This document shows, piece after piece, positions 43,041 through 61,325 of a DNA stretch of 64,000 bases (position 1 is its first letter; each line of letters opens with the position of its first letter). Source of the DNA: an uncultured Acidimicrobiales bacterium (GTDB lineage: Bacteria > Actinomycetota > Acidimicrobiia > Acidimicrobiales > SZUA-35). The DNA is taken from NCBI GenBank assembly GCA_938002965.1, contig CALKZY010000004.1:1-64000 (forward strand), in the 5' to 3' direction. A program made the position numbers and the translations under genes. The notes under the pieces were generated by a model. It saw nothing but the letters and a program-made list of their open reading frames with translations, had not been told where the DNA came from and ran no database searches.

Positions 43041-43052
43041 GCGATGCGCCTC

Positions 43053-43472
43053 CTAGCCTTTGGCTTGCAGGCCGGCGGCGTTGATACCGGCCATCGCCGC
43101 TAGTTCATCGTTGTCGGAGGTGTCGCCGCTGATGCCGACGGCCCCGACCTGATTGCCGTCGGTATCGACCACGATGACGCCTCCGGCCACCGGCACCAGG
43201 TCACCCCCGACCGCACCGGCGGCACCGTTTATGAAGTATGGCCGATCGATGGCCAGCTGTTCGACCTGACGCGAGTTGAGACCGAAGCTCAACGCTCCGT
43301 AAGCCTTGCCTCTGGCCACATCGACCCGGCCGAAGGAGGCTCCGTCTTGGCGACTCAGTGCTTTGATGTGACCGCCAGCATCAAGAACCACGACGCACAA
43401 CGGTGTCATGGCCGCTTCGGCGGCGGCAGCGAAGGCGCCGTCGATGATTGTCTGGGCTTGGTTGAGATTCAT
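43053..43472 (-). CDS. glcG: GlcG/HbpS-family protein
   Basis: 139 residues, one GlcG/HbpS (PF03928) domain: VVVLDAGGHIKALSRQDGAS near residue 27, a central GKAYGALSF and the C-terminal GGVIVVDTDGNQVGAVGISG. Members bind heme or cobalamin-like ligands or act as accessory proteins; in E. coli glcG sits in the glc operon without a settled role. It is between glcB (12 nt gap) and glcD (12 nt gap). Confidence 0.9.
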   Translation of the reverse strand: MNLNQAQTIIDGAFAAAAEAAMTPLCVVVLDAGGHIKALSRQDGASFGRVDVARGKAYGALSFGLNSRQVEQLAIDRPYFINGAAGAVGGDLVPVAGGVIVVDTDGNQVGAVGISGDTSDNDELAAMAGINAAGLQAKG

Positions 43473-43484
43473 GTCGTTTCCGAT

Positions 43485-45653
43485 CTACCGGGTTGCGGCC
43501 TTGGCCAGGTGGCGGTGGGCGTGAAGAATGGGTTCGGTGTAGCCCGAGGGCTGTTCGGTGCCTGAGGTAACCAGGGCGCAAGCTGCGGCGAACGCCGGCC
43601 CGTCGTAACTGGGAGCCATGGGGCTGTAGGCACTGTCGTCTTCGTTCTGGCGATCAACCACTGCGGCCATGCGCCGCATGGTCTCCATCACCTGATCATG
43701 GGTCACAACTCCGTGGTGGAGCCAATTGGCCATGTGCTGCGAGGAAATCCTACAGGTGGCTCGGTCTTCCATCAGGCCGACATCGTTGATGTCGGGCACT
43801 TTGGAACAGCCCACACCCTGATCGACCCAGCGCACGACGTAGCCCAGTATTCCTTGGGCGTTGTTATCAAGTTCAGCCTGAATGTCGGACTCGGTCCAGG
43901 CCGCTCGGGTGTGCTGGTCGGCCAATGGTATGACAAGCAGGTCTTCCAGTTTGGCTCTTGGCCCAGCAGCGGCCAGTTCGTCGAGTCGGGCTAGCACGTC
44001 AACCTGGTGGTAGTGAGTGGCGTGCAACGTGGCTGCCGTCGGCGAGGGGACCCAAGCGCAGTTGGCACCGGATTGCGGGTGACCGACTTTTTGTTCCAAC
44101 ATTTCGGCCATCCGATCAGGGGCGGCCCACATTCCTTTGCCGATCTGGGCTTTGCCCCTCAGCCCGCAGGCCAGGCCGACATCGACGTTCCAATCCTCGT
44201 AAGCGCCGATCCACGCTTCGGATTTCATCTCGCCTTTGCGAACCACCGGCCCAGCCGCCATCGAGGTATGGATTTCGTCGCCGGTTCGGTCGAGGAAACC
44301 GGTGTTGATGAAGACCACCCGGCCGGAAACAGCCCGAATGCACTCTTTGAGGTTGACAGTGGTGCGGCGTTCCTCGTCCATGACACCGACTTTGACGGTG
44401 TTGGGCGCCAACCCGAGGATCTCCTCAACTCTGGTGAACACTTGGTCGGCAAACGTCACTTCGTCCGGCCCATGCATTTTTGGTTTGACCACATAGATGG
44501 ACCCGGTACGTGAGTTGGTTTGTAATGCCAGACCTTGTTTGGCTCCCAAGACGGTGAGTAGCGCATCCAACAAGCCTTCGGGAATCTCGTTGCCGTTGCC
44601 GTCGAGTACCGCCGGTGTCGTCATGAGGTGACCGACGTTGCGGACCAACATGACGGCTCGACCTGGCAGTGTGTAACCGGTGCCATCCGGACTGGTATAG
44701 GTGCGGTCGGCGGCCAAGCTTCGAGTGAAGGTGGTAGCGCCTTTGGTTACCTCTTCGGTAAGGTCTCCCCGGTTGAGGCCAAGCCAGTTTCGATAGGCCA
44801 GGGCCTTGTCCTCGGCGTCAACCGCGGCCACAGAATCTTCGCAGTCCATGATGGCGGTCATGGCCGATTCGATGACCACGTCGCTCACTCCGGCACGGTC
44901 GGATGCCCCAATCGGATGCTGACGATCGACTTGGATTTCGATATGTAGTCCGTTGTTGACCATCAAGACGCTGGTCGGCTCGGCGGCGTCGCCTTGCCAT
45001 CCGACAAGCTGGGTGTGATCTCGCAGCGGAGGGTTCAGCGCTCCGTCGACAATGGTGTAGTGATCGGCGTCGGCGTGCGACCCAGAGGACAGCGGCACCG
45101 CTTGGTCGAGAAACTTGCGGGCCCAAGCGATGACCCGTTCTCCACGAGCCGGGTCGTATGGCCCGGGTGCGGCGGTGTCACCAAGCGCGTCGGTGCCGTA
45201 AAGGGCGTCGTACATTGAGCCCCACCGAGCGTTGGCGGCGTTTATGGCGTAGCGGGCGTTCATGATGGGGACGACTAGCTGGGGTCCGGGCACTGACGCC
45301 ATCTCCGGGTCGACTCCTTCTGTGGTTATTGAGAAGTCAGGCCCTTCGGGCACCAGGTAACCGATGTCTTCCAGGAAAGCTCGGTACTCGCCAGCGTCGA
45401 ACGGCACCGGATGGTTCTTGTGCCATCGATCGATGGCGGCCTGAATGTCGACTCGGACCTGTAAGAGTTCAGCATTGCGCGGACCGAAGTCGGCCACGAT
45501 TGCCGCCAAACCGTCCCACACCTGTTGGGCACTCAAGCCTGCGCCCGGGACGGCTTCGCTTTCAACGAAGTCAGCCAGCGGCTCTCCTACCAGCAAGCCG
45601 GATCGTTCAACGTATGGGTGGTCAGCGGCAGTGTTAGGACGATTAACAACCAT
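43485..45653 (-). CDS. glcB: Malate synthase G
   Basis: 722 residues, the length of isoform G. It condenses glyoxylate with acetyl-CoA to malate. Visible features: [48 protein letters not shown] (with the metal-binding acids), [18 protein letters not shown] and the C-terminal [19 protein letters not shown] block. It is the first gene of the glc operon, divergent from the GntR gene with 59 nt between. The ATG has no ribosome site and lies 5 nt after CAATAT, so a leaderless mRNA is possible. The two dyads at 45664-45690 lie over its promoter. Confidence 0.95.
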
Positions 45654-46584: not shown

Positions 46585-47508
46585 CTACTCGGACGCCGAT
46601 GTTGGAAGCGGCTGGCGGAATAGGCCGGCAGGAATTGGAGCATTGCATCGCACCAAGGACACTTGCCATGCCGGTGACGCACCCAGAGCCCACCTGAGTG
46701 CTGCAGTGGCTTTCTCGCCAGTGCCGGCCGCTCGCTTCCCCGGCTCGACACCCAGCTGGGTTCGGATATCGACGGGAATCGTGGTCAACGCCGCTTCGTA
46801 CAGCAGTCGGTAGCCGATCTTTACCGGAGGGTTCAGGGGCGGACTCCGAAGAAACGAGATGGCGTTGGCCTGTGCTTCGGTCGCCACCCGATCGGGGTGA
46901 TCAACAATCCAGTCTGTCAGTTCTTGTGCCGTTTCCGGAAGGGGTTCGGCACCGAGGAGTTGACCAACCCTGGTTTGCTCGGCAACAAACCGGTCGGCCT
47001 CGGCCACCGTAAGCCGCTTCGGCCCGAACGCCTGGTAGCAACTGAGGAACGAGTCGGTCAGCACGTTGTGGACCCAAGCCGCCATCTCCGGCCGAGCGGC
47101 ACTGTAAGGAAGATTTCGTTCCGAGGTTCCCCTGACCGGACGGTGAGCTTGCCGCACAACATCGACCGCTGCTTGAACTTCGGGCATCGCACCGTAGGTG
47201 GTCTCGGTGACGTACACCGAAGTACGGGACAACCGGCCGAGCGGATCGGTCCGATACGTCGAATGGTCTTCGACTCCGGCCACAACCTCGGCGTGAGCGG
47301 CCTGCACCACCAGAGCCCGAATACCTCCGGCGAACACCGAAGCGTCGCCGATCACCCGCCACGACACCGAGTCAGGGCCGAGAAGTCCCGGGTCGTCGGC
47401 GAAGTCCAACGTGTTGGCCAGCGGCGTCGGGCCGTGTGAGAACAACCCGGTCATGGCGGCAACCACCGGGTCTCGCAGTTTGCGGCTCAAGTCACTCAGG
47501 CCCGACAC
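46585..47508 (-). CDS. DUF2236 (MpaB/latex-clearing-like) oxygenase family protein
   Basis: About 307 residues from GTG 47508; TTG 47526 in frame is less likely. The family block WRVIGDASVFAGGIRALVV followed by QAAHAEVVAGVEDHSTY and DPLGRLSRTSVYVTETTYG is intact, and the His of QAAHAEV and AAWVHNVL are candidate heme or iron ligands. Members include latex-clearing proteins and mycophenolic-acid oxygenases, but most actinobacterial copies have no known substrate. It is downstream of and parallel to the glycosyltransferase gene and converges with the GntR gene, with 170 nt between in which I see no gene. Confidence 0.8.
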   Translation of the reverse strand: MSGLSDLSRKLRDPVVAAMTGLFSHGPTPLANTLDFADDPGLLGPDSVSWRVIGDASVFAGGIRALVVQAAHAEVVAGVEDHSTYRTDPLGRLSRTSVYVTETTYGAMPEVQAAVDVVRQAHRPVRGTSERNLPYSAARPEMAAWVHNVLTDSFLSCYQAFGPKRLTVAEADRFVAEQTRVGQLLGAEPLPETAQELTDWIVDHPDRVATEAQANAISFLRSPPLNPPVKIGYRLLYEAALTTIPVDIRTQLGVEPGKRAAGTGEKATAALRWALGASPAWQVSLVRCNAPIPAGLFRQPLPTSASE

Positions 47509-47593
47509 TCTATCTCGCTGCCCCAACGATTTTGGTGCAGCCGTTCAGTCGCCAACACCAGCGCGTGCCGGGCGCCATACAACGTCTCGCAAT

Positions 47594-49020: not shown

Positions 49021-49794
49021 CTAGATGAGGTTGACTTCGACCCCGTGGATCATTCGCTGTTCGCCATGGCGAGAGCCCGCGGCGGCGCGAAAGTCAACCG
49101 AGCGCAGCCCGTCGCCTCTGCCGTCAGCTGCGCGAACAAAACGGATGTCGGCGTTGTCCAGTTCGATAACCGGGGTGAGACGGACGTGGACCCGGCCGTC
49201 GTACTTATCCGGCTGGGCGAAGCTTCGACGGTCGAACGGACGACCCAATAGGTCGGACCACTGCTTGGCCAGATTCTCTGGTTCGGTGGCCTGAATCTCG
49301 ATGGCCACAATTGCCTCGATGACCGAGGCGTCAACGTGTTGACGCCAGTCGGGGCCAGCCCATGGCCACTCGGCCGATTTCGGCCCGGCGTCAACCGACA
49401 AGATGGTGCCACCGATGTCGGCAGGGTGAAAGTGCAGTCCGACGATGCCCTCGCCTTCGGCTCGAAAGGCAATCCGCATCTTAAGTTCATCGGCGCTTGA
49501 CTCGACCCACTCCAGGTCGTCGGTTTCGAGAATCACCATGTAGCCCCCATCACCGAAACGACGGTCGAGCAAACGACCGGCCGCGGTCTCCTCCTCCATG
49601 GGTGCGACCACTTCTACGAACTGGTCCCCACATGGCATCACGACGTTCTCAAGACCAAACTGGGCTACCGACGGGTCACGAAACGCCGGACGCAACCCTA
49701 ACAACCCGTTGATGGTGGCAGCCGCTGATTCATGGTCGTGGGCTACCCACACAACCTGCCGGAGCCTTAGCGGCCGCTGTTCAAGCATGTTCAT
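49021..49794 (-). CDS. VOC (glyoxalase-like) family protein
   Basis: 257 residues made of two VOC-type halves (about 10-130 and 140-255). The first starts RLRQVVWVAHDHESAAATI, with CGDQFVEVVAPMEE at the end of its beta sheet; the second starts near AIVAIEIQATEPENLAKQW. Residues in metal-binding positions (His near the start, Glu in QFVEVV) are present, so it may be a metal-dependent isomerase, dioxygenase or lyase. It follows the FAD oxidoreductase gene by 93 nt on the same strand and may belong to the catabolic operon. Confidence 0.72.
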   Translation of the reverse strand: MNMLEQRPLRLRQVVWVAHDHESAAATINGLLGLRPAFRDPSVAQFGLENVVMPCGDQFVEVVAPMEEETAAGRLLDRRFGDGGYMVILETDDLEWVESSADELKMRIAFRAEGEGIVGLHFHPADIGGTILSVDAGPKSAEWPWAGPDWRQHVDASVIEAIVAIEIQATEPENLAKQWSDLLGRPFDRRSFAQPDKYDGRVHVRLTPVIELDNADIRFVRAADGRGDGLRSVDFRAAAGSRHGEQRMIHGVEVNLI

Positions 49795-49887
49795 ATCCTG
49801 AAGGAAGAGGGGATCGACTACAACTAAGAAGAACTACACGCAAAGTTCCATCCCCACGAAGGTTATGGGCAGGAGTGCCCTGTGGGA

Positions 49888-51291
49888 CTACTCCTCTAGA
49901 CCTGCTGTTCGTCTTCGGGCCCACGCATTGGCCCGGATTCCCCAAGAGTTGAACGGATCAGGGAAGTTGCGACTGGGTCGCCCCTTGGCCCTCATCTCAC
50001 TCAACAACGCGGAATCCTCTCCCAATATATGTTCGGCAAGCAGCTTCCCCGAAATCGTTCCCCGCGCTAATCCGACTCCTTGATAGGCCAAAGTGGCCCA
50101 CAACCGCTCGCCGATGTCCCCAAACACCCCTTCGCCGTTGCGAGACAGCGACAGTGGACCGCCCCAGGAGTAGTCGAAGGGAACGTCGGACAGCATCGGA
50201 TAGCGGTGCTCGAACGACCGACGATGCACCTTGGTGATCTTCCCCAGTTCGGGTTCCAGCGCCGTGTTGTCCTTGGACAGTGTGTACTGGTTGCGAATCA
50301 AGATTCGGTTGGTCGGCAAACGCCGCACAGTGGTCCCGGCCGGGTGCGCCGGGATGATGGCGTAGTTGTTGAGCCCACCAAGTCTGGCCACTTCACGGTC
50401 GGTCAACTCTCTGGTCATCGACCCCCAGGTGATAAGCGGAATGAGGTGTTTGCTGTACAAACCCCATCCGGCGGCAAACCCGTTGACGGCCAAAATCAAG
50501 TTGGGGGTGGCGATGCTGCCGCCCGGAGTCTCCAGCCGGTGCGACAACTGCGAGATGCTTCGGGCGTAGCTGACCGAACGCACCGGCGACGACTCAAAGA
50601 CGGTGACGTTGGACGGCATGGTTGCAGCCATTCCTCGAACCATGGCGGCCGGTTGCACCGTGATGCTGTGCGGACACCAGATACCGACGCTGTAGAAGTC
50701 GGTTCCGAAACGTTCGGTCAGCTCAGCGGCGCCGAACCGGGTGTAGTCCTCGTCGATGGCCTCCAGGCTTTCGGCGAACCCGGCCAACATCTCGGCCCCT
50801 TTGTCGGTGCAAGCGGCGTGAATCTTCCCTTCCCGCCGGAAATCGCAGTCGATGCCGTTTTCGGTGACCACCCGTTCCAGTTCATCCAGGCCCGCCCGGT
50901 TGAGAGCAATGGCCTTCTTGGCCGAAGTCGGGTCTTCGGCGAAGGACTTGGCCCGAAGGTTGTGGGCGTGATCGATGGCAAACCCCGAGGAACGTCCGGC
51001 GGCGTTGTTGCCAATGCGGTCCGCTTCGACCAGGGCAATCGATGAGTCGGGAGCGAGTTCGGCCAGGCGACGTGCGCAGGCCAAGCCGCCATAGCCCGCT
51101 CCGACCACCACATAATCGAAGTCGAGCGCTCCACTAACCACATTCGGCGGATCGGGCTCGGGCAGAATCTCGTGCCAAGCGTTGCGATTGTCGTAGTTGG
51201 GAAGCAGCTCAATGTCGACAGTCCGACCATCGAGACCTTTGAATGTGTGCGCCTGAGCGGGGGCCATCCCAGGCATTCCGGGAAGACTCAT
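49888..51291 (-). CDS. FAD-dependent amino acid/amine oxidoreductase (DadA/PuuB type)
   Basis: 467 residues. The FAD-binding site DYVVVGAGYGGLACARRLAE is near residue 60 after an N-terminal extension that is common in PuuB-like proteins, and GRSSGFAIDHAHN and the late GGPLSLSRNGEGVFGDIGERLW fit the DAO family (PF01266). Likely substrates are D-amino acids, sarcosine-type N-methyl amino acids or amines. It is the last gene of a tight operon (DapA-like, ALDH, this gene), overlapping the ALDH stop as ATGA. An oxidase making an imine or aldehyde upstream of ALDH fits the order. Confidence 0.83.
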   Translation of the reverse strand: MSLPGMPGMAPAQAHTFKGLDGRTVDIELLPNYDNRNAWHEILPEPDPPNVVSGALDFDYVVVGAGYGGLACARRLAELAPDSSIALVEADRIGNNAAGRSSGFAIDHAHNLRAKSFAEDPTSAKKAIALNRAGLDELERVVTENGIDCDFRREGKIHAACTDKGAEMLAGFAESLEAIDEDYTRFGAAELTERFGTDFYSVGIWCPHSITVQPAAMVRGMAATMPSNVTVFESSPVRSVSYARSISQLSHRLETPGGSIATPNLILAVNGFAAGWGLYSKHLIPLITWGSMTRELTDREVARLGGLNNYAIIPAHPAGTTVRRLPTNRILIRNQYTLSKDNTALEPELGKITKVHRRSFEHRYPMLSDVPFDYSWGGPLSLSRNGEGVFGDIGERLWATLAYQGVGLARGTISGKLLAEHILGEDSALLSEMRAKGRPSRNFPDPFNSWGIRANAWARRRTAGLEE

Positions 51292-52814
51292 GACAGATCC
51301 AACCAGATGGTTTTCTGTTCGGTGTATTGGTCGTGGGCGGCCAGCGAATTGTCTCGCCCGCCGAAGCCCGACAGCTTGTACCCACCGAACGGGGTGGAGA
51401 TGTCGCCCTCGCCGTAGCAGTTGACGGTTATCGTTCCAGCCTTGATCCGCAGCGACGCCAGGTGGGCGGTTCGAACATCGGTGGTGAAGACGCTGGCGGC
51501 CAACCCATAGTCGGTGTCGTTGGCCAACTTGATGGCGTCCTCCGGTTGGTCGAAGGTGCTGACGGCTAATACCGGGCCGAACACTTCTTCTCGGGCCACT
51601 CGCATGTCAGCGGTTACACCGGCGAAGATCGTCGGCTCCACAAACCAACCGCCACTCTGCTTTCGGACCCGCTTGCCGCCGAGAACCAGGTCGGCCCCTT
51701 CTTTGTTGGCAGCGGAAATGTTGTCGAGGATTTTCTCCAAGTGGGCCTGTTCAATGATGGCGCCGATCTTGGTTGTCGGTTCGAGTGGGTCACCGACGAC
51801 CCACTCCCCCACCTGACGACCGATCAGCTCCAGCAACTCATCAGCCAACGAGGAGTGCACGATGAGGCGCGAGTTGGATGAGCAGTTCTGACCGGCGTTC
51901 CAAAACACCGATGTGGCGATGTGAGCGGCAACGCTCTCGAGGTTGTCGGCATCGGCCATGACCACCGCCGGGTTCTTGCCTCCGCACTCAAGTAGAACCC
52001 GCTTCAAGTTGGAATCGGCCGAGTAGTTGAGGAAACGTCGCCCGGTTTCGGTTGAGCCGGTGAAGGCAACAGCATCGACGTCGAGATGACGCCCGAGGGG
52101 TTCACCCACCTGAACGCCGTCGCCAGGCACAGCGTTGATCACCCCGTCCGGTAAACCCGCTTCCAAGGCCAGCTCAGCCATGCGAAGTGTGCTGAGGCTG
52201 GTTTGTTCGGCTGGTTTCAGAACCATCGTGTTGCCGGCAGCCAGGGCCGGACCGATCTTCCATGCCGCCATCATCAGCGGGAAGTTCCAGGGCAAGACTG
52301 CAGCCACCACGCCGATGGGCTCTCGTTCAATCATGGAGACGACACCCGGCCCGGAGGGAGAGAGCTGACCGTAGATCTTGTCCGATGCTTCGGCGTGCCA
52401 ACGGATGGCCTCAATCGCTTCGGGTACGTCGATGCCGGAGGTGTCGGCAATTGGTTTGCCTGCTTCCAATGTCTCAAGCAGGGCCAACTCGTCCGAGTGA
52501 GCATCCAACACGTTGCAGAATCTGATCATCAACCGGCGTCGCTCGGCTGGGGTCATCCGCGCCCATGGACCTTCATCAGCCGCTCGACGGGCGGCAGCGA
52601 CGGCAGCATCAACGTCATCGGCGTTGCAATCTGGAATCTGGGCGAGCACCTCGCCAGTGGCCGGGTTGACGGTGTCGAAGGTTGCTTTGCTTCGGGCACC
52701 GACCAACTTGTTGCCGATCACGGCGCTGGCGGTGATCTTGGTTCCGCCGTCGATCAGGTTGAGGCCTTCGGCAATGGTCTGCCAGTCAGCTTGGCTTCGA
52801 GTGGTATCAGTCAT
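51288..52814 (-). CDS. Aldehyde dehydrogenase, NAD(P)-dependent
   Basis: 508 residues of the ALDH superfamily. The catalytic Cys is in FWNAGQNCSSNSRL, the general base Glu in LLECGGKNPAV, and the cofactor motif in AFTGSTETGRRFL; the family Asn is in VLPWNFPLMMAAWK. It is like PuuC or betaine-aldehyde/2-oxoglutarate-semialdehyde dehydrogenases; the substrate is not decided by sequence. Overlaps both neighbours by 4 nt (ATGA), so strictly coupled. Confidence 0.9.
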   Translation of the reverse strand: MTDTTRSQADWQTIAEGLNLIDGGTKITASAVIGNKLVGARSKATFDTVNPATGEVLAQIPDCNADDVDAAVAAARRAADEGPWARMTPAERRRLMIRFCNVLDAHSDELALLETLEAGKPIADTSGIDVPEAIEAIRWHAEASDKIYGQLSPSGPGVVSMIEREPIGVVAAVLPWNFPLMMAAWKIGPALAAGNTMVLKPAEQTSLSTLRMAELALEAGLPDGVINAVPGDGVQVGEPLGRHLDVDAVAFTGSTETGRRFLNYSADSNLKRVLLECGGKNPAVVMADADNLESVAAHIATSVFWNAGQNCSSNSRLIVHSSLADELLELIGRQVGEWVVGDPLEPTTKIGAIIEQAHLEKILDNISAANKEGADLVLGGKRVRKQSGGWFVEPTIFAGVTADMRVAREEVFGPVLAVSTFDQPEDAIKLANDTDYGLAASVFTTDVRTAHLASLRIKAGTITVNCYGEGDISTPFGGYKLSGFGGRDNSLAAHDQYTEQKTIWLDLS

Positions 52815-53827
52815 TTGTCAGCCCCCTTGACCGCGGTGGCGTCGGCCGAGCGGGTCGATGCTCGATCGACGGCTCCGACCAGCCAGTCCTTTTCCTCTTC
52901 CCACGAGCGGTAGACCAGGCGGTCTCGGTTACTGCGATTGATCGGCAGTGTCGACATCGCCGTTTGTAGCGCTACTCGGGCTTCGCCCGACATGGGCAGC
53001 TGTGGTCGCCGGTTGGGGCCGAGGTTGCGGCCCATCATGTTGGCCCCGCTCTTGGCTCCCACCAAGTACTCAACGTCGAAATCGTTCTCCCATAAGAAGG
53101 CGTTGGTGGGATGCATCTTGGACCAAAGCTCCAGACCTTCATTCAGCCGGCCAGCAGTGATGTGCTCGTAAAGCTGTACACATTCGTGCGGCATGATGTT
53201 GGCCGCTCCCCAAATCCACCCGACAGCTCCGGCCATCAGGGCATACGGGGCAATGGGATCGGCACCGCAAAGCACCTTGCCTCCGACGGCCACAAACTTC
53301 TGGAGCTTGGCCAGATCTCCTTCGGAGTCTTTCATGTAGGCGATGTTGTCAATCTGAATCAGCCGCCGGTACATGGCCGGGGTGATCTCAACACCCGAGG
53401 CCTGCGGCGTGTTGTACAAGATGATGTCGATCGGTACGTGACGGGCCACCTGCTCGTAGTGGTACAGCACTCCCCGCTCGAATGGACTTTCCAGCCATGG
53501 GGGCAGGATCATCGCTGCTTCGGCACCGTGATCGGCGGCAAACTTGGAAGCCTCGATGGTGTCGGTGGTGGACATGGCCGAGGTCTGGGTGCAGTACGGG
53601 ATGCGTCCGTTGATTCTTTTGCCGCAGATTTCGATGATGCGGCGTTTCTCCGCTTCGGTCAGATAGGCGTACTCGCCGGTCCCGGCCAGGACAAGGATCG
53701 AGTGCACTCCGGCATCGATCAATTCGTCGATGTAGTCGCCGAGACGCCCCTGCTCCAGTTGTTCGCCGGTCGTGTCCAGTGGCGTGCACATTGCCACGCA
53801 GACGCCCTTTATCCCGGGACTAGTCAT
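52811..53827 (-). CDS. Dihydrodipicolinate synthase / N-acetylneuraminate lyase family protein
   Basis: 338 residues from ATG 53827, which has AGGAGG 6 nt upstream; an in-frame start at 53848 has none. A class I aldolase barrel: LVLAGTGEYAYLTEAEKRRI near residue 45, the tyrosine in IDIILYNTPQASG and the Schiff-base lysine in IAYMKDSEGDLAKL. A real DapA would normally sit with lysine genes; here it heads an operon with ALDH and an FAD oxidase. This grouping fits catabolic members such as pyrroline-hydroxy-carboxylate deaminase (HypD) or keto-deoxy-sugar-acid dehydratases. It is divergent from the LysR gene. Confidence 0.8.
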   Translation of the reverse strand: MTSPGIKGVCVAMCTPLDTTGEQLEQGRLGDYIDELIDAGVHSILVLAGTGEYAYLTEAEKRRIIEICGKRINGRIPYCTQTSAMSTTDTIEASKFAADHGAEAAMILPPWLESPFERGVLYHYEQVARHVPIDIILYNTPQASGVEITPAMYRRLIQIDNIAYMKDSEGDLAKLQKFVAVGGKVLCGADPIAPYALMAGAVGWIWGAANIMPHECVQLYEHITAGRLNEGLELWSKMHPTNAFLWENDFDVEYLVGAKSGANMMGRNLGPNRRPQLPMSGEARVALQTAMSTLPINRSNRDRLVYRSWEEEKDWLVGAVDRASTRSADATAVKGADK

Positions 53828-53927
53828 GCTCCGCCTCCTGGTACTCACCGCACCCGGTTGAGTTCGTGTTTCTCATCTGTCTCCAGTTGATTTCGTCATG
53901 AGAGTAGCGTGATGGAGTCGAGTTTGT

Positions 53928-53946
53928 CATACTCGGATCTCGTATG
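53928..53946. promoter_or_regulatory. Dyad in the divergent LysR promoter
   Basis: CATAC-9 nt-GTATG lies 15 nt before the LysR gene start in the 133-nt divergent region. It is a candidate LysR-type recognition site; the spacing is wider than the usual T-N11-A core, so this is tentative. Confidence 0.4.
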
Positions 53947-53960
53947 GGAACGGCTTCCAC

Positions 53961-54884
53961 ATGAAACTTGACGTTGAATCGCTTCGCACGCTGCGGGAAG
54001 TGGTCGATGCCGGGGCCTTCACCGAGGCGGCCGCTCGGTTGGGCATGACCCAAAGCGCCGTCAGCTGGAAGGTCAAGCGGCTCGAGGAGCGGGTCGGTGC
54101 GGAACTGGTCCAGCGGGGAACCACAATCGAGCCCACCGCCGACGGCGAGGACTTGCTGGCTTATGCCGAGGTCATCATCGAGGCACACGATGCAGCTGTC
54201 GACCGCCTGACCCGCTCGGAAGTGGCAGGAACGGTACGCCTCGGCTCGAATGAGGATCTGCACGCCCCCGAGCTGGCCAAGATCGTGGCTCGGTTCAATC
54301 GGGTGTTTCCCAAAGTTCATCTCAAGGTTCGTATCGGACTGAGCGGCCATGTTCGACAGTGGTTGGACGATGACGAGGTTGATCTCGCTCTCCTTCAACT
54401 GCCGATCGACGAGATCGAGCCCGGCGACACCGAACTCTGGCGAGAACCGGTTCGATTCATGAAAGCCGTTGATGCCGAAATCGGGCAGCCGCTGCCCGTT
54501 ATCGGTTTCGGTCCCGGCTGGGCCATCGGACCGCACGTTGAGACGGCCTTAAACAACTGGGGTGGCCCTTGGCGCGAAGTACTTGAGTGTCCGAGTCTCG
54601 CCGGCGTCCAAGCCGCTGTCCGTGCTGGACTTGGCGTCAGTGCGCTCAATCCGTTCATCAGCGATAACACCATGGAGTCGTGGGCCAACGACAGCGACGA
54701 GGACAATCGCCTCCGGCTGCCCGACGTCAGCCAGCTGATTCGAGTTGCCGAGCCGAGCACCGGCAACCACGACGACGCACAACGAGAACTACTGAATCTG
54801 CTAGCCGACGAATTGGCAGCCGAACTGGATCACCCCCAAAACGGGAGACACCGGGAAGACATGAAGAGCATCGATGAGTCGTAG
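53961..54884 (+). CDS. LysR-family transcriptional regulator
   Basis: 307 residues. N-terminal winged helix-turn-helix: LRTLREVVDAGAFTEAAARL and GMTQSAVSWKVKRLEERVG, followed by the effector domain (TVRLGSNEDLHAPELAKIV, then CPSLAGVQAAVRAGLGVSAL). It probably controls both divergent operons. Its last 11 nt overlap the start of the mttB-like gene, so regulator and enzymes are in one transcript. The effector is unknown but likely the pathway substrate. Confidence 0.9.
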   Translation: MKLDVESLRTLREVVDAGAFTEAAARLGMTQSAVSWKVKRLEERVGAELVQRGTTIEPTADGEDLLAYAEVIIEAHDAAVDRLTRSEVAGTVRLGSNEDLHAPELAKIVARFNRVFPKVHLKVRIGLSGHVRQWLDDDEVDLALLQLPIDEIEPGDTELWREPVRFMKAVDAEIGQPLPVIGFGPGWAIGPHVETALNNWGGPWREVLECPSLAGVQAAVRAGLGVSALNPFISDNTMESWANDSDEDNRLRLPDVSQLIRVAEPSTGNHDDAQRELLNLLADELAAELDHPQNGRHREDMKSIDES

Positions 54885-56394
54885 ACGTGGACGATCAAGT
54901 CGCCGGGACAGCCGCTTGACCGACACCGGGCCGGACTGGGTGGCGCCGCTGGAACGCGGCATCCCCTACATCGACCTGCTGTCAACCGAGCAGGTCGAGC
55001 GGGTCCACGATGAGACCATGAAGCTGCTGGAGGAGATCGGCTGCGAATTCCGCGACGACGAGTCCGCGGCCATGTGGGCCGCAGCCGGCGCGGACGTCGA
55101 CGGCTACCGGGTACGCATCGACCGCGAACATCTAATGGAGCTGATCTCCACCGCTCCGGCCGACTACACCATGTTGGCCCGTAACCCCGACCGGGCGGTC
55201 ACCATCGGAGGCCGAAGGACGGCATTCACCCCGTCATACGGAGCGCCGTTTGTACTCGATCTTGACGGCACCCGCCGCAACGCCACGTTGGACGACTTTC
55301 ACAACTTCGCCAAACTGGCTTACCTGGAGCCCTACCTACACATGACCGGTGGTGTGGTCTGCGAACCCATGGACGTGCCGGTCCCCCACCGACACCTGGA
55401 GATGGTCTATTCCTTGCTGGCCCATTCCGACAAGCCGTTCATGGGAGCGGTGACCTCGCAGGAGCGGGCGGAAGAAACCATGCACATGGCCGGAATCGTG
55501 TTCGGCCACGATGTGGTCAAGGACACCACGGTGATGACGTCGTTGGCCAACGCAAACTCACCATTGGTGTGGGATGCCACCATGTTGGACTCTGTCAAGG
55601 TGTATTCGTCGCATAACCAAGCGGTGCTGTTCAGCCCGTTCGTGTTGGGTGGAGCGTCCACGCCGGCGTCCACTATCGGTTCAGTGGTTCAACTATCGGC
55701 CGAAGCACTGGCCGGTGTGGCATTCAGCCAGCTAGTACGCCCCGGTGCCCCGGCCGTTTACGGCCAGTGGCTGTCGACGGTATCGATGCGCTCCGGCGCA
55801 CCCCAGGCCGGGACCCCGGAGATCTGCCACATGAACATGCTGGTCGGCCAGTTGGCCCGACACTACAAGCTGCCATGGCGGTGCAGCGGCGGCTGTTCCA
55901 GCTCCAAGACAGTAGACGCCCAAGCCGGGTACGAGGCGGCCCGCAACCTCTACGGCGTTGTGATGGCCGGCGCCAACTTCGTACTGTCGAGCACCGGTTA
56001 CCTGGAAGGCGCCTTGTGTCAGAGCTACGCCAAGGTGGCCTTGGACGGCGAACAGTTGGCCATGATGCACAAGCTGGCCTCGGGCATCAACTTCGATGAA
56101 CTCGACGAAGCGATGAGCGCGGTTCGCACCATCTCCCCCGGCGACCACTACCTAGGCACGGCTCACACGTTGGCCAACTTTCAGACAGCGTTTATGATGC
56201 CTGACCTGATGAATACCGACTCCTACGAACAGTGGACCATTGACGGCTCGAAGGACGCTGCCGTGCGGGCGGCCGAGAAGGTTCGCTCCCAATTGGCCCG
56301 CTACGAACCGCCAGCTCTTCCCGATGATGTCGGAGCCGAATTGCGAGACTTCGTCGACCGTCGCCGCGCCGAGATCCCCGAGTTGGTTTCCTGA
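54874..56394 (+). CDS. MttB-superfamily (COG5598) methyltransferase, non-pyrrolysine type
   Basis: 506 residues of the trimethylamine:corrinoid methyltransferase superfamily. The gene has no in-frame TAG, so it lacks the pyrrolysine of true MttB and belongs with MtgB-like proteins that demethylate quaternary amines such as glycine betaine, proline betaine or carnitine. Family blocks: VHDETMKLLEEIGCEF near residue 40, TPSYGAPFVLDLDG, EMVYSLLAHSDKPFMGAV and AAPQAGTPE-like QAGTPEICHMNMLVGQLA. The usual partner, a corrinoid protein, and a methylcorrinoid:folate transferase are not encoded in the window. The start overlaps the LysR gene by 11 nt and the stop overlaps the next gene (TGATG). Confidence 0.85.
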   Translation: MSRRRGRSSRRDSRLTDTGPDWVAPLERGIPYIDLLSTEQVERVHDETMKLLEEIGCEFRDDESAAMWAAAGADVDGYRVRIDREHLMELISTAPADYTMLARNPDRAVTIGGRRTAFTPSYGAPFVLDLDGTRRNATLDDFHNFAKLAYLEPYLHMTGGVVCEPMDVPVPHRHLEMVYSLLAHSDKPFMGAVTSQERAEETMHMAGIVFGHDVVKDTTVMTSLANANSPLVWDATMLDSVKVYSSHNQAVLFSPFVLGGASTPASTIGSVVQLSAEALAGVAFSQLVRPGAPAVYGQWLSTVSMRSGAPQAGTPEICHMNMLVGQLARHYKLPWRCSGGCSSSKTVDAQAGYEAARNLYGVVMAGANFVLSSTGYLEGALCQSYAKVALDGEQLAMMHKLASGINFDELDEAMSAVRTISPGDHYLGTAHTLANFQTAFMMPDLMNTDSYEQWTIDGSKDAAVRAAEKVRSQLARYEPPALPDDVGAELRDFVDRRRAEIPELVS

Positions 56395-57182
56395 TGGCGG
56401 CTGCTCGTGACCTCAGCGGACGGGTGGCCGCCGTCAGCGGCGCCACCTCCGGCATCGGTAGGGCCACCGCAATCTGTCTGGCAGAGCTGGGAGCCGACGT
56501 GGTGATCGGAGGCCGCAACCAATCAGGAGCCGACGGAGCAGCCGATGCCGTAGCCACCGCCGGTGGCAAAGCGGCCATCTTGCTGGGCGACATCACCGAC
56601 CCCGCCTATGGCAGCGCACTTGTCGACACCGCCATCGCCACCTTCGGAGGCTTGGACATTGTGGTCAACGCCGCCGGGACCATAACCCGTTCTACGGCTG
56701 AGGAAACCTCAGACGACGACTACCGCCGAGTCATGGCCGTCAACGTCGACGGCACCTTCTTCTTATCCCGCGCCGCGGTACCGGCGCTTCGGCAACGAGG
56801 GGGCGGGTCGATCATCAATATCGCCTCCAACGTCGGTCTGGTTGGCGCAGCCGGGTTGGCCGCCTACTGCGCCTCTAAAGGTGCGGTTGTGTTGCTCACC
56901 CAGTCGATGGCGCTGGAACACGCAGCCGAAGCCATTCGGGTAAACGCAGTGTGTCCCGGAGCGGTTGATACGCCGATGCTTCGCCTCGAACGAGAGGCGG
57001 CGATTGCTGCAGGCAAGATGACCGAAGCCGACATCATGGCGACAAACGAACAGCTGATACCGCAGGGCCGGGTGGCTGAAGCCCACGAGATCGCCGAACT
57101 GGTAGCCTTTCTGGCCTCGGACCGGTCGAGCCACATCACCGGAACCGCCATTCCGATCGACGGAGGTTATCTGGCGCAATGA
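56394..57182 (+). CDS. Short-chain dehydrogenase/reductase (first)
   Basis: 262 residues, classical SDR: cofactor loop SGATSGIGRATA, NAAG in the middle, catalytic Ser in IINIASNVGLVG and the YCASKGAVV Tyr-Lys pair. The end AIPIDGGYLAQ is the usual C-terminal signature. Oxidises or reduces an alcohol or keto group with NAD(P). Its start overlaps the mttB-like stop and its own end overlaps the second SDR gene (ATGA), so all are one translational unit. Confidence 0.9.
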   Translation: MAAARDLSGRVAAVSGATSGIGRATAICLAELGADVVIGGRNQSGADGAADAVATAGGKAAILLGDITDPAYGSALVDTAIATFGGLDIVVNAAGTITRSTAEETSDDDYRRVMAVNVDGTFFLSRAAVPALRQRGGGSIINIASNVGLVGAAGLAAYCASKGAVVLLTQSMALEHAAEAIRVNAVCPGAVDTPMLRLEREAAIAAGKMTEADIMATNEQLIPQGRVAEAHEIAELVAFLASDRSSHITGTAIPIDGGYLAQ

Positions 57183-57955
57183 GCGATCATCGAGATGTGT
57201 TGGATGGCCGAGTAGCCGTTGTCACCGGCGGTTCGCGGGGAATCGGCCGGGCGATCGTTCAACACTTGGCCCGGGCAGGGGCCACTGTGGTCATCGGCGA
57301 CCTCAACGAGCCGTCGGATTTGGATGACGGTGGAAGCATCACCTGTGCTCACCTCGACGTGGCCACCGAAGACTCGGTAGTCACCTTCATCAGTGAGGTG
57401 GTGGCCAGCCACGGCAACCTCGACATTGTGGTCAACAACGCCGGCATCATGTTCGAAGAACCGGTGGTCGGTCACTCGGTCGACCGATGGACCAAGGCAT
57501 TGGCCGTGAACCTGACCGGGCCGTTTCTCATGGCCAAGCACGCCGCCGAACACCTGGCAGCCCGGCAGGGGATTGTCGTCAATATCGGCTCGATTGAAGG
57601 CTACGCCTGCAATCCCAACCACGCCGCCTATGCCGCTACGAAAGGTGGAGTACACGGCCTGACCAAGGCATTGGCTGTGGACCTCGGGCCGATGGGTATT
57701 CGCTGCAACGCGGTAGCCCCGGGTTGGATCGACACCGAACTGAACGCTTCCTACATCGACTCACACCCCGACCGGGACAAGATTGTGGACGCATTAGCCA
57801 AACTGCATCCGATCGGCCGCATCGGCGATCCAACAGACGTGGCCGACGTCGTCACATGGCTGGCCGGTCCTGATTCGGCGTTTGTAACCGGTCAGGTCAT
57901 CACCATCGACGGTGGCCGTACCGCACGCCCAAACTTGCCCTCCGCTCTCTGGTAG
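57179..57955 (+). CDS. Short-chain dehydrogenase/reductase (second)
   Basis: 258 residues, classical SDR: VVTGGSRGIGRAIV, NNAGIMFEEPV, INIGS-like VVNIGSIEGYACN and YAATKGGVHGL with Tyr-Lys, ending GQVITIDGGRTARP. It is not a close copy of the first SDR; the two probably act on successive or related intermediates. Last gene of the LysR/MttB/SDR/SDR unit. About 100 nt separate it from the galactose-oxidase-like gene. Confidence 0.9.
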   Translation: MSDHRDVLDGRVAVVTGGSRGIGRAIVQHLARAGATVVIGDLNEPSDLDDGGSITCAHLDVATEDSVVTFISEVVASHGNLDIVVNNAGIMFEEPVVGHSVDRWTKALAVNLTGPFLMAKHAAEHLAARQGIVVNIGSIEGYACNPNHAAYAATKGGVHGLTKALAVDLGPMGIRCNAVAPGWIDTELNASYIDSHPDRDKIVDALAKLHPIGRIGDPTDVADVVTWLAGPDSAFVTGQVITIDGGRTARPNLPSALW

Positions 57956-58062: not shown

Positions 58063-60114
58063 ATGATTGAGCGAGGTGGCTCACGGCGACAGCTCAAACG
58101 TGCTGTATTCAGGCGTGATTGGCGAGCAAAACTTTCGGTGGCGTTCGCGTTTTTGATGGTGGTCGGCGTGCTGACCGCTAGTCCGGCATCGGCCGCACCG
58201 GCTGATGAGGGCGAATGGTCGGAGTTGGCAGACTGGGCCTTTATCCCTATCCACGCCTTTGTGGACGAGACGGGCAAACTAGTGACCTACGGCGGAACCC
58301 GAGCCGGTGGACAAGGTGGCTACGAGGTTGACCTGTGGGACCCGAGCCTCGGATTCGGCCCGGCATCACACACCACAATCGCTAATCAACTGGGCACGAA
58401 TCTGTTCTGTTCTATCTCAGTTTCCGACGCGCCGGGGCAGCGATCATTCCTCCTTGGCGGCCAAACCACGGGCACAACGAAGAACACGTTTTCTGCCCAG
58501 TTCGACAACAACGTGCTGGCCGACGCTGATGATCTGGCCGAACCCCGCTGGTACCCGACGGCCACCACCCTCGGCGACGGACGCATCGTCCTCCAGGGCG
58601 GCATTCCCGATGGCTTCGGTGGACGAAGCACACCGATCACCGTGGCCGAGATGTACACGCCCGGCAGCGGATGGCAAACCATGGAGGGCACCCGCGACCC
58701 GGGAGTTTGGGCGACACCCAACTACGGCTGGTGGTACCCAAGAGCTCATCTGACCCCTCAAGGCAAGATCTGGAGCCTGGCCTGGGATGAGATGTTCTAC
58801 ATCGACCCTGACGGTGCAGGCAGCATCACCCGCCTCGGTCGGCTCCCGACCGACAATCGAGGAGCAACGTCGGCTTCAGTCATGTACGACAGTGGGCTGG
58901 TTCTTCAGGTCGGCGGCGGCGAGCGAGGCAGCGACGAAGCTCGCTTCGCAGGCTCGAAGAAAGCCACCATTGTGGACCTCAATTTCGACCCGCCGCAGCT
59001 ACGTCCAGCAGCCGACATGAACTTCGGCCGTCACTGGCACAACGCCATTGTTCTACCCGACGGCAAGGTGCTGGTGGCCGGCGGTTCAGGAGTCAATAAC
59101 ACGAACAGCGAGGTGGCCTATGCTCCCGAACTGTGGGATCCAGTTACCGATACCTGGACCGTGCTTGAGGCCAACACCACCGCCAGGCTCTATCACTCCA
59201 CCGCAGTGCTGATGCCCGACGGTTCGGTATTCACCGGCGGCGGCGGGGCGCCAGGCCCGTTCACCAATAAGAACGCCGATGTGTTCTACCCGCCTTACTT
59301 GTTCGAAGGTGACGGGTCGCGAGCGGTCAAGTTAGATGTCACCAACGCACCCAGTGCCGTTTCTCACGGCGACGATTTCACCGTGAATGTGAACGGCACG
59401 GTCGACCGGGTCACGTTCATCAAGACCAACAACGCCACTCACTCAATCAACTCCCAGATCTTCCAGGAGCTGTCGTTCACCCAGTCGGGAGGCACCTTGT
59501 CCATCACGGCACCGGGCGAGCCGAACGTGGCGACGCCCGGTCTCTACATGCTGTACGCCCTCGATGCCGACGGCGTACCGTCAGACGCCGAGATGGTGTG
59601 GCTCAACTACGACGGCGTTGTCGGTCCACCCCCGACTGATCCGTCTCCACCCGGTAGCGCTGACAATCTGCTGTCCAATGGTGGCTTTGAGGCCAACACA
59701 GTGGCTGATGGCGCCTGGGGCGTACCAGCGGTACCAGGTTGGGACACCAACCGTCCCGGCGACTCGATTGAAGTCTGGGGAACCGGACACAATGGAGTAG
59801 CCCCAACCGAAGGCCGACAGCTGGCTGAGCTCAATGGCAACGGGCCCGACACCGTCACCCAAACAGTGACCGTCACCGCCGGAAAGAACTACACATGGTC
59901 GATTGACCACCGGGGCCGGCGGGACACCGACACCATGGAAGTCACTATCAACGGCCAATCACAAGGTCAGTTCACAGCTCAACCCGGATCATGGACAACC
60001 CACACCGGCACCTACACGCCAACCGACAATCAACTGACCATAAGCTTCCAAGCCATCGACACCGGCGGCTACGGCAACCTAGTTGACAACGTTCGGATAA
60101 CCGGCGCCCAGTAG
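58063..60114 (+). CDS. Secreted galactose-oxidase-like copper protein
   Basis: 683 residues from ATG 58063, 8 nt after AAGGA; ATG 58054 in frame is too close to it. Signal peptide (LSVAFAFLMVVGVLTASPASAAP), a Kelch-type propeller, a DUF1929-type E-set domain (residues about 440-540), then a Pro-rich linker and a C-terminal beta-sandwich like CBM4/9. The galactose-oxidase active site can be followed: Cys in NLFCSIS, Tyr in PRWYPTATT, Tyr-His in RLYHSTAVLMPDG and the last His in NNATHSINSQ. It should be a copper radical alcohol oxidase secreted to oxidise sugars or glycans; substrate unknown. Confidence 0.85.
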   Translation: MIERGGSRRQLKRAVFRRDWRAKLSVAFAFLMVVGVLTASPASAAPADEGEWSELADWAFIPIHAFVDETGKLVTYGGTRAGGQGGYEVDLWDPSLGFGPASHTTIANQLGTNLFCSISVSDAPGQRSFLLGGQTTGTTKNTFSAQFDNNVLADADDLAEPRWYPTATTLGDGRIVLQGGIPDGFGGRSTPITVAEMYTPGSGWQTMEGTRDPGVWATPNYGWWYPRAHLTPQGKIWSLAWDEMFYIDPDGAGSITRLGRLPTDNRGATSASVMYDSGLVLQVGGGERGSDEARFAGSKKATIVDLNFDPPQLRPAADMNFGRHWHNAIVLPDGKVLVAGGSGVNNTNSEVAYAPELWDPVTDTWTVLEANTTARLYHSTAVLMPDGSVFTGGGGAPGPFTNKNADVFYPPYLFEGDGSRAVKLDVTNAPSAVSHGDDFTVNVNGTVDRVTFIKTNNATHSINSQIFQELSFTQSGGTLSITAPGEPNVATPGLYMLYALDADGVPSDAEMVWLNYDGVVGPPPTDPSPPGSADNLLSNGGFEANTVADGAWGVPAVPGWDTNRPGDSIEVWGTGHNGVAPTEGRQLAELNGNGPDTVTQTVTVTAGKNYTWSIDHRGRRDTDTMEVTINGQSQGQFTAQPGSWTTHTGTYTPTDNQLTISFQAIDTGGYGNLVDNVRITGAQ

Positions 60115-60131: not shown

Positions 60132-60165
60132 AGCCGGTCCGGAACCTCCATGGTCCGGTCCGGCT
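60132..60165. terminator. Bidirectional hairpin between convergent genes
   Basis: AGCCGGTCCGGA, 10-nt loop, TCCGGTCCGGCT: a 12-bp stem with one mismatched pair, filling the 50-nt gap between two convergent genes. No T tract is present, but the position supports a terminator in both directions. Confidence 0.5.
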
Positions 60166-61325
60166 TATGCGCTGGTCAAAACCCGTCGTTTGCTTTCCAA
60201 ATCCTCGTGGTTCAGGTAAGCACCGATGTAATGGCGGTAACCGGAGAAGGCGTTGCGACCATGCATGGCCCGCCAGTTGTCAATCACGAAGACGTCGCCT
60301 GGTTGAAGGCTGACGGCCGCCCGGCGACTAGGGTCATTTGCCAGTTCGGCGAAGCGAGCGTACGCCGAGTAGAACTGTTGCTCGCGTTCGGCTGGAAGTA
60401 GGAACGGGGCTCGGTCGTAGTTGTTGAAGCTGACCTGGCGCAGCACACCCCTGGCATCGGAGCGAAAGACTGGCCGCTCGGCCTGCAGATGCACACCGGG
60501 CTCGATGTAACGTCCGGGAACCGAAACTGACGCCAGCGTTGCCGCCGCTTCCGGTTCGGTGCGAGCCAATTCGTCGGCGATGGCGAAGCCGTCGACCACC
60601 AAACTCTCGCCTCCGCTTTCAGCTGGCTGCACACACAGAAAATATTGAAGACCCGGCGCATCGTGACTGTACGTCGCATCGGTGTGCGGCCCAAGGTAGA
60701 CGCTGCTGTAGGCGGTGTCGGCGTGCTCGGTTAGGTCGGGGGCCAGATCCCACATTCCACCGAAGATGGTGTGGCGGATGTAGCCCAACCGCTCGGCGAA
60801 CGCTTCGGCCCGAGCCCGATCGAGTTTGGGATGGTGTCGATTGGCCCGCAAGACCAGGTAGCCGTAGCGGGATAGCTGATCAACCCCATGGGTTAAGACC
60901 TCATCAGTGCCGAGGAAGGCGTCTAACTTGACTTCGTCCGGTGCGGCGGTTGCCGGATCGCCCCACAACACCGCGTCGGCTGGCATGGCAAAGTCAGAGG
61001 GCAGCGCCCGTGACCAATCGGTGGCAACATAGGCACTAATTACATCGGCCAGCAGCGTATGCGAGTGGTCGGTGACCGCACCATCGGGCCATCGAATTGA
61101 GAACCACCCCGGGTTCCCGTCGTGGCGTTCAATCTGCCCGCTGGCGGAGGAGTCGATTGCGAACGTGTCGACTCGTCTCTGTAGCGTCTCCGGGTCCCGG
61201 CTGGCCTCGTCCTCGCCGTGGTCGCGCAACCAACGCCACGAGACGGTAACCGGTTCAGTCGTATCCGAGATGCGAAGCTCCAGGCCTGCCTCGGACTCGT
61301 TGAAATCGATCAATGCATCACTCAC
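60165..61325 (-). CDS. Gamma-butyrobetaine / trimethyllysine dioxygenase family protein
   Basis: 386 residues. N-terminal DUF971-like part (VSWRWLRDHGED) followed by a TauD-type Fe(II)/2-oxoglutarate dioxygenase domain: LGYIRHTIFGGMWDL, the His-x-Asp in YLGPHTDATYSHDAPG, the distal His in WRAMHGRNAFSGYRHY. This two-domain layout is that of BBOX1/TMLHE, which hydroxylate gamma-butyrobetaine or trimethyllysine in carnitine synthesis. TACCCT (61332-61337 on the minus strand) ends 6 nt before the GTG, suggesting a leaderless mRNA. It fits the quaternary-amine theme of the MttB gene 4 kb away. Confidence 0.85.
   Translation of the reverse strand: MSDALIDFNESEAGLELRISDTTEPVTVSWRWLRDHGEDEASRDPETLQRRVDTFAIDSSASGQIERHDGNPGWFSIRWPDGAVTDHSHTLLADVISAYVATDWSRALPSDFAMPADAVLWGDPATAAPDEVKLDAFLGTDEVLTHGVDQLSRYGYLVLRANRHHPKLDRARAEAFAERLGYIRHTIFGGMWDLAPDLTEHADTAYSSVYLGPHTDATYSHDAPGLQYFLCVQPAESGGESLVVDGFAIADELARTEPEAAATLASVSVPGRYIEPGVHLQAERPVFRSDARGVLRQVSFNNYDRAPFLLPAEREQQFYSAYARFAELANDPSRRAAVSLQPGDVFVIDNWRAMHGRNAFSGYRHYIGAYLNHEDLESKRRVLTSA

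Follow-up and report, generated by a model that had tools for sequence, protein, structure and literature searches.

The window analysed here is a stretch of 64,000 nucleotides from an uncultured Acidimicrobiales bacterium (GenBank assembly GCA_938002965.1), forming part of contig CALKZY010000004.1 (C4), and it carries seven genes that constitute one conserved unit, encoding a LysR-family regulator, an MttB-like methyltransferase, two short-chain dehydrogenases (SDR1 and SDR2), a FAD-dependent oxidoreductase, a DapA-like lyase and an aldehyde dehydrogenase (ALDH). On balance, the cluster appears to serve, as a single unit, the breakdown of a hydroxylated cyclic betaine, the likeliest substrate being 4-hydroxyproline betaine or a stereoisomer of it. 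Judging from the gene neighbourhoods that point to this substrate, the bacterium, whose genome (G000) measures 4.69 Mb and is 91% complete, probably feeds on methylated hydroxyproline by means of a B12-dependent enzyme.

A search with the DapA-like protein as query (threshold 1e-30) covered 397 genomes of the order, among them the window's own, and found it in 36: in 29 at 55% identity or more (one of these, G219, holding a second copy at 47%) and in seven at 29-32%. The neighbourhoods of 28 relatives, together with a scan of named genomes, yielded 81 loci with a DapA at 54% or more, of which 55 have distinct DapA DNA; 37 of the latter are full, showing 6.5 kb or more of sequence on each side, and the other 18 have a contig end close by. 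Genes were counted as neighbours within 7 kb of DapA, at identity thresholds of 60% for MttB and ALDH, 44% for FAD, 45% for SDR1, 50% for SDR2, and 40% for LysR and for the VOC and trimethyllysine dioxygenase (TMLD)-like neighbours considered below. In the full loci, MttB was seen 36 times, ALDH 37, FAD 36, SDR1 34, SDR2 35 and LysR 20, and the corresponding counts over all 55 loci, contig ends included, are 50, 54, 50, 46, 43 and 33. The chance that one of the six MTTB matches of the 4.69 Mb genome (one of them partial) falls within 7 kb is about 2%, and the loci are non-independent trials, as relatives share ancestry. MttB shares its strand with DapA in 32 loci and lies opposite to it in 18, and in many relatives the genes form a single operon in the order MttB-DapA-ALDH-FAD-SDR1-SDR2. 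Because gene order is shuffled among the relatives' loci, the set must have been kept together, and the two operons that the original prediction joined in one pathway were not found separated in this comparison. The close relatives from the named-genome scan are mostly titled Acidimicrobiales, Acidimicrobiaceae or Candidatus Microthrix metagenome-assembled genomes (MAGs), some being marine by title. In one locus (L040) the main cluster lacks the FAD gene, and a pair composed of a 62% FAD and a 47% DapA-like gene lies on another contig (L065/L135, G219). The VOC protein, which had been listed as encoded downstream, was rejected as part of the pathway, since it occurs near the cluster in only two of the 55 loci (the close relatives L037 and L078) and in 0/37 full ones.

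The MttB-like protein matches PF06253 over its whole length (positions 1-500 of 500, 656 bits), and its gene (54874-56394) is of the non-pyrrolysine type, because it contains no internal stop and no in-frame amber codon. Non-pyrrolysine MttBs of Eubacterium limosum are each specific for one quaternary amine and share an MtqC/MtqA corrinoid/tetrahydrofolate (THF) machinery that is encoded elsewhere, according to PMC8604678. Similarly, PMC12478193 describes MtgBCD of Ruegeria pomeroyi as a pfam06253 protein with separate MtgC and MtgD and glycine betaine as substrate, and suggests diverse substrates for the up to seven pfam06253 genes of such bacteria. In family and gene arrangement the window's protein resembles MtpB, MtcB and MtyB of E. 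limosum, being a non-pyrrolysine MttB with its corrinoid/THF machinery in trans, and differs in that those belong to an anaerobic acetogen whereas the cluster co-encodes oxidative downstream enzymes. With MtgBCD it shares the pfam06253 protein and the separate corrinoid protein and methyltransferase, but glycine betaine is the substrate there, and within its own genome the window's MttB has just 47% identity to the one next to the corrinoid genes. That second locus (G000:C2) encodes MTTB, a RACo-type reactivase, a pterin-binding protein, a B12-binding protein, MTHFR and FTHFS, so that the partners of MttB (corrinoid protein, corrinoid:THF methyltransferase and reactivase) are present in the genome at a locus other than the cluster. 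Among 40 genomes (the 29 cluster-bearing ones and 11 of the same family without the cluster), B12-binding_2 in an open frame of less than 450 aa was found in 29/29 and 8/11, respectively, and three of the four genomes that have no MTTB also have no B12-binding_2 match.

The closest plasmid-borne relatives of the MttB protein are found outside the phylum, in Mesorhizobium NZP2077 (66%) and M. amorphae (64%); paralogues within G000 reach 47% at best and are thus farther away. The window family and Mesorhizobium L187/L188 form one clade in the MttB tree (support 100/99), with L190/L191 as sister (97/99). The NZP2077 and M. amorphae regions also encode orthologues of the SDR1 (53/51% identity to the window), SDR2 (52/51%), ALDH (56/53%), DapA-like (36/34%) and FAD (32/33%) proteins, as well as betaine/proline ABC transporter genes, proline racemases, an M24 peptidase and a hydantoinase. 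At 1e-50, SDR1 matches three plasmid records, which are the Mesorhizobium clusters, and SDR2 matches 28, several of them near-identical Cereibacter sphaeroides or Mesorhizobium strains. Among the matches listed for MttB (60 records down to 1e-118 plus 30 of 136 records), one lies within 10 kb of SDR2 in 26/28 records; the two others, NZ_CP087599 and NC_011962, have no MttB among those listed, which does not imply absence. In the laboratory strain C. sphaeroides 2.4.1, for instance, related MttB and SDR2 genes are 1.9 kb apart.

Eight alphaproteobacterial loci with a close or sister MttB were opened (L187, L188, L190, L191 and L214-L217). Six of them contain SDR2 (L190 and L191, as far as seen, do not), six the FAD/DapA/ALDH trio and five betaine/proline ABC genes (L187, L188, L214, L215 and L217), and none of the eight has all parts intact in the window's subtypes. 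In L217 (Sinorhizobium meliloti AK57 pSymA) the related MttB, FAD, ALDH and enolase-family genes are split over several frames, by decay or sequencing error. An HpbD-family enolase gene or its remnant is found in six of the loci (L190, L191 and L214-L217). L190, with the order DapA, ALDH, FAD, LysR, MttB, enolase-family, GlxA, has an enolase-family protein whose best score is 469 bits, to 4e8g, followed by 396 to both 2pmq and 4h2h; the next family reaches 247, and the NCBIfam cis-3-hydroxyproline dehydratase model 275 (cut-off 500). 4H2H is identified as 4-hydroxyproline betaine 2-epimerase in PMC11961199. The enolase of Aminobacter L191 is of the same type (72% identity to that of L190), and in Alisedimentitalea an enolase-family protein scoring 612 and 576 bits to the 4e8g/4h2h family, against 231, is encoded directly after MttB and before two SDRs. 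Pieces or remnants of the gene occur in L214, L215 and L217; in C. sphaeroides IL106 and in Phyllobacterium, as in L217, it is fragmented. The idea of N-methylated amino-acid or betaine degradation therefore draws support from the conserved unit, from the DapA tree (see below) and from this recurrence of MttB/SDR2 with the HpbD family or with betaine/proline ABC transporters in alphaproteobacteria.

Within the order, HpbD-like genes (at least 41% identity among matches at 1e-25) were counted in the same 40 genomes and are present in 24/29 cluster-bearing ones vs 1/11 others. Inside the family this becomes 5/7 vs 1/11 (Fisher p 0.013), and among MTTB-bearing members 5/7 vs 1/7 (p 0.10). The fifteen HpbD-like neighbourhoods that were opened have no consistent betaine gene set in common. 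Proline racemases above cut-off occur in 27/29 and 7/11 genomes, never on the cluster contig. The earlier statement that an epimerase is absent holds for G000, but in 24/29 cluster-bearing genomes the HpbD-like gene is present on another contig. Type III glutamine synthetase above cut-off is likewise found in 19/29 vs 1/11 genomes, within the family in 6/7 vs 1/11 (p 0.0025) and among MTTB-bearing members in 6/7 vs 1/7 (p 0.03); shared ancestry weakens all of these co-occurrence tests. In five of seven glutamine synthetase regions opened (4/6 of the cluster-bearing ones), GATase, GXGXG and Glu_synthase genes adjoin, the domains having been checked in G000 only, and we take this arrangement to resemble the gmaS-mgsABC genes for methylamine use. 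The copy in the window's own genome (L206, G000:C20, 9176-15239) combines type III glutamine synthetase, GATase, GXGXG and glutamate-synthase-like genes, a gmaS-mgsABC-like set in an Acidimicrobiales MAG.

According to PMC4113996, the trans-4-hydroxyproline route relies on an oxidase of the DAAO family, a deaminase of the DHDPS family and an ALDH, with which the earlier assignment of the FAD, DapA-family and ALDH genes to hydroxyproline enzyme classes agrees. The DapA-like protein keeps the Schiff-base lysine K161 and Y133 of E. coli DapA but lacks three further dihydrodipicolinate synthase residues, T44 being replaced by G, Y107 by L and R138 by A; it scores 156 bits against NCBIfam dapA (cut-off 206). 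In a tree composed chiefly of sequences chosen for their likeness to the window's, with sugar-acid enzymes thinly sampled, it falls in a 33-row clade (95/91) apart from E. coli DapA, NanA and YagE, and also from the S. meliloti pSymB racemase-cluster copy and the L189/L190 subfamily. It did not group, then, with the lysine-synthesis or sugar-acid enzymes in a tree that holds few of the latter. Its AlphaFold model (pLDDT 77.8, nine sequences) has the family fold, with 3na8 as nearest PDB fold, a search that does not separate functions; a possible identity of 3na8 as a hydroxyproline enzyme was not confirmed by a literature search, and the entry serves solely as nearest structure. Taken together, these features make the DapA-like enzyme a likely, though still putative, HypD. 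ALDH is 53-57% identical to the ALDHs beside DapA-like genes in L074 and L187-L190. Its NCBIfam scores (best PuuC, 531 bits, cut-off 850; AlphKGSA_gudD, 365, cut-off 770) do not reach the 2-oxoglutarate semialdehyde dehydrogenase equivalog, and none of the 25 models listed, of 43, is labelled as the hydroxyproline-type enzyme. The nearest named models of the FAD protein, aminophosphonate oxidoreductase and L-pipecolate oxidase, are both far below cut-off, and it has no match among PDB sequences at 1e-5. Additionally, L072, L073 and L217 contain a second rhizobial cluster with a FAD/DapA/SDR set of the window's DapA clade, perhaps a route for another N-methylated substrate; its extras are an 815-aa FAD protein (L072, L073), ETF (electron transfer flavoprotein) and folate genes (L072, L217) and betaine ABC genes (L073, L217). 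The DapA in L217 that is of the window's clade type lies just after SDR2 and is 34% identical to the window's and 68% to that of L075.

From these gene contents we infer a substrate, an order of steps, a role for the SDRs and a fate for the second methyl group. MttB would transfer one methyl of the quaternary nitrogen to the corrinoid protein encoded elsewhere, from which the pterin-binding methyltransferase would pass it to THF for oxidation. The FAD enzyme would convert the resulting N-methyl-hydroxyproline to a pyrroline or pyrrolinium, and the DapA-like enzyme, through its Schiff-base lysine, would dehydrate it and open the ring, giving 2-oxoglutarate semialdehyde and freeing ammonia or methylamine; ALDH would then yield 2-oxoglutarate. 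SDR1 and SDR2 may invert the C4 hydroxyl through oxidation and reduction. The second N-methyl could be released as methylamine by the DapA-like enzyme, in keeping with the methylamine-type genes, or be lost as formaldehyde during the FAD-dependent oxidation. Because no epimerase was found in G000, three options arise for the stereochemistry at C2: the FAD enzyme may take the L form, the natural substrate may be the D form, or an epimerase may be encoded in the missing part of the genome. Of the possible versions, a more specific one can be offered tentatively, with rather less confidence than the substrate class: only one methyl is removed, the DapA-like enzyme opens N-methyl-4-hydroxypyrrolinium directly, methylamine is recaptured by the gmaS/mgsABC-like system, and the SDRs are a C4 stereo-inverting pair that works with no C2 epimerase.

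Several observations weigh against hydroxyproline betaine as the substrate. An HpbD-type gene is missing from L187 and L188, the closest alphaproteobacterial loci (the enolase encoded in L188 is of another type, with 34% identity to it), and the identity of their FAD and DapA-like proteins to those of the window is low, at 32-36%. Within the visible region, no FAD/DapA/ALDH trio is found in L191 and L216. In L190, L214, L215 and L217 the DapA beside the MttB-linked ALDH/FAD genes belongs to a different subfamily (25-28% to the window's). In G000 itself (91% complete) neither an HpbD-like gene (at 1e-25) nor a proline racemase was found, and in none of the 40 genomes searched does an HpbD-like gene (at least 41%) lie on the cluster contig. 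Among the rows of the window's DapA clade, only 6/33 (L074, L129, L130, L137, L187 and L188; not the window's own copy) are near proline racemase genes, most marine proteobacterial members being accompanied by an SDR or a branched-chain-type ABC transporter, and racemase-adjacent DapAs also fall outside this clade, including second copies in L129, L130 and L137. The DapA and ALDH of the S. meliloti pSymB racemase cluster, the former of which we take for HypD by its position, are distant from the window's. ALDH identity was rejected as proof of hydroxyproline metabolism, a 55% homologue being present in an ectoine cluster, and the enzyme is not diagnostic. The cluster contains no transporter either. 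G000 has no BCCT transporters, and its three OpuAC-type genes are on contig C35, away from the cluster.

Among the other explanations, the substrate might be a hydroxylated betaine with an open chain, for example homoserine betaine, which forms the head group of the lipid diacylglyceryltrimethylhomoserine (DGTS), in which case MttB would take a methyl, the FAD enzyme would remove dimethylamine to give 4-hydroxy-2-oxobutanoate, the DapA-like protein would be an aldolase and the SDRs and ALDH would oxidise an alcohol or aldehyde. The DapA fold family does include the 2-oxo-acid aldolases YagE and NanA, the nearest models of the FAD protein act on different amines, and SDRs suit a free hydroxyl. 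The window's DapA is nevertheless not grouped with either aldolase, some members of its clade adjoin proline racemases, and the sister MttB/SDR2 genes are linked with the 4-hydroxyproline betaine epimerase family, which makes this explanation rather unlikely. Slightly less likely again is 3-hydroxyproline betaine or another ring isomer, handled by SDR oxidation at C3 and an enolase-family dehydratase/epimerase. The M. amorphae cluster region encodes an enolase-family protein that is closest to 2ps2, together with a proline racemase whose nearest structure is a 3-hydroxyproline dehydratase, and a similar enolase-family gene stands within 1.3 kb of the cluster in four related genomes (G077, G219, G239 and G376; 37-39% to the M. 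amorphae one). The sister MttB genes, however, sit with the 4-hydroxyproline betaine epimerase family, and a DHDPS-type deaminase with a semialdehyde dehydrogenase is the 4-hydroxyproline route in PMC4113996. It is also improbable that MttB acts on proline betaine (stachydrine) like MtpB and that FAD/DapA/ALDH separately serve free hydroxyproline. MtpB demethylates proline betaine (PMC8604678), and the HpbD enolase subclass includes a proline betaine racemase (PMC5144071); yet MttB stays with FAD/DapA/ALDH in 36/37 full loci, the SDRs have no evident use on proline betaine, and G000 has no proline racemase. A homarine route was considered too, and no gene-level match for it was among the matches listed. 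Two unrelated operons, neighbours by accident, would suit the divergent arrangement in the window and are hardly credible beside the single-operon and shuffled orders in relatives and the presence of MttB with both SDRs in Mesorhizobium.

In the window, the eight open reading frames (ORFs) of 49021..57955 were confirmed at their predicted places and with their predicted Pfam families (Table 1). Their positions, Pfam matches and overlaps bear out the gene set described on both strands: the overlap is 4 bases long for FAD/ALDH, ALDH/DapA and SDR1/SDR2, 11 bases for LysR/MttB and a single base for MttB/SDR1. For the DapA-like gene, a start at 53827 (an ATG behind AGGAGG) is preferable to 53848.

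Table 1. Features of the cluster and its divergent intergenic region (positions in the window).
Feature	Coordinates	Strand	Evidence
VOC/glyoxalase-like protein	49021..49794	-	Pfam Glyoxalase_3, 28 bits; adjacent, not part of the conserved module
FAD-dependent amine oxidase/dehydrogenase (DAO family), predicted ring/amine oxidation	49888..51291	-	Pfam DAO, 130 bits
Aldehyde dehydrogenase, predicted 2-oxoglutarate semialdehyde dehydrogenase role	51288..52814	-	Pfam Aldedh, 565 bits
DapA-family lyase, predicted HypD-like deaminase	52811..53827	-	Pfam DHDPS, 165 bits
Divergent intergenic region, 133 bases, presumably promoter/operator	53828..53960	.	Sequence and gap length only
LysR-family regulator	53961..54884	+	Pfam HTH_1, LysR_substrate
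MttB-superfamily (non-pyrrolysine) methyltransferase, predicted quaternary-amine demethylase	54874..56394	+	Pfam MTTB, 656 bits
SDR1, short-chain dehydrogenase	56394..57182	+	Pfam
SDR2, short-chain dehydrogenase	57179..57955	+	Pfam

Several neighbouring genes are of separate interest. A glycolate-oxidase-like FAD protein (FAD_binding_4, FAD-oxidase_C) and malate synthase G are encoded at 41535-45653 (-), perhaps a locus for glyoxylate use, beside a divergent gene at 45713 that is called GntR-like from sequence reading. At 46585-47526 (-) lies a gene for an MpaB/latex-clearing oxygenase family protein (PF09995), a 53-54% homologue of which is found near HpbD-like genes in L221-L223. Between the cluster and a TauD-family gene, a galactose-oxidase-like protein with Kelch and GO-like_E_set matches is encoded at 58138-60114 (+). 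The TauD-family protein itself (60165-61325, -) scores 219 bits as trimethyllysine dioxygenase (cut-off 268) and 196 as trimethylaminoethylphosphonate dioxygenase (cut-off 400), and is a further candidate enzyme for a trimethylammonium compound. This TauD/TMLD-like dioxygenase was rejected as a pathway part: it is unlinked to the cluster in relatives, with 0/37 full loci at 40% identity.

Catabolism of hydroxyproline betaine and proline betaine (Hpb) has reportedly been described by Zhao in 2013 and Kumar in 2014, works that PMC4113996 and PMC5144071 cite. The published betaine route uses Rieske-type demethylases. The cluster has in common with the Hpb pathway the (hydroxy)proline betaine substrate proposed here, a FAD oxidase, a DapA-family deaminase and an ALDH downstream, and an HpbD-family epimerase beside sister MttB genes; it differs in a putative corrinoid-dependent MttB at the position of the Rieske-type demethylase, in two added SDRs and in the lack of an epimerase in G000. 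With the trans-4-hydroxyproline pathway, which runs through an epimerase, a DAAO-type oxidase, a DHDPS-type deaminase and a semialdehyde dehydrogenase, the cluster shares the last three enzyme classes, to which it adds MttB and the SDRs. The proline racemase is missing from G000 and lies, in relatives, on contigs other than the cluster's; the enzymes of S. meliloti pSymB are only distantly related. The pathway, which had been called possibly new, would be so for the use of an MttB step and not for its hydroxyproline enzyme classes. In open-access full-text literature, no description of the gene set or of a hydroxyproline-betaine MttB was among the matches listed, subscription papers being mostly outside the search.

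The cluster is thus best regarded as a predicted variant on the known Hpb and hydroxyproline pathways, in which MttB would replace Rieske-type demethylation, two SDRs would be added and the host is a member of the Acidimicrobiales. It gives one MttB subclade a specific, testable substrate class, and the same module is found in Acidimicrobiales MAGs, rhizobia and roseobacters. If this reading is true, B12 supply would bear on the breakdown of the osmolyte hydroxyproline betaine.

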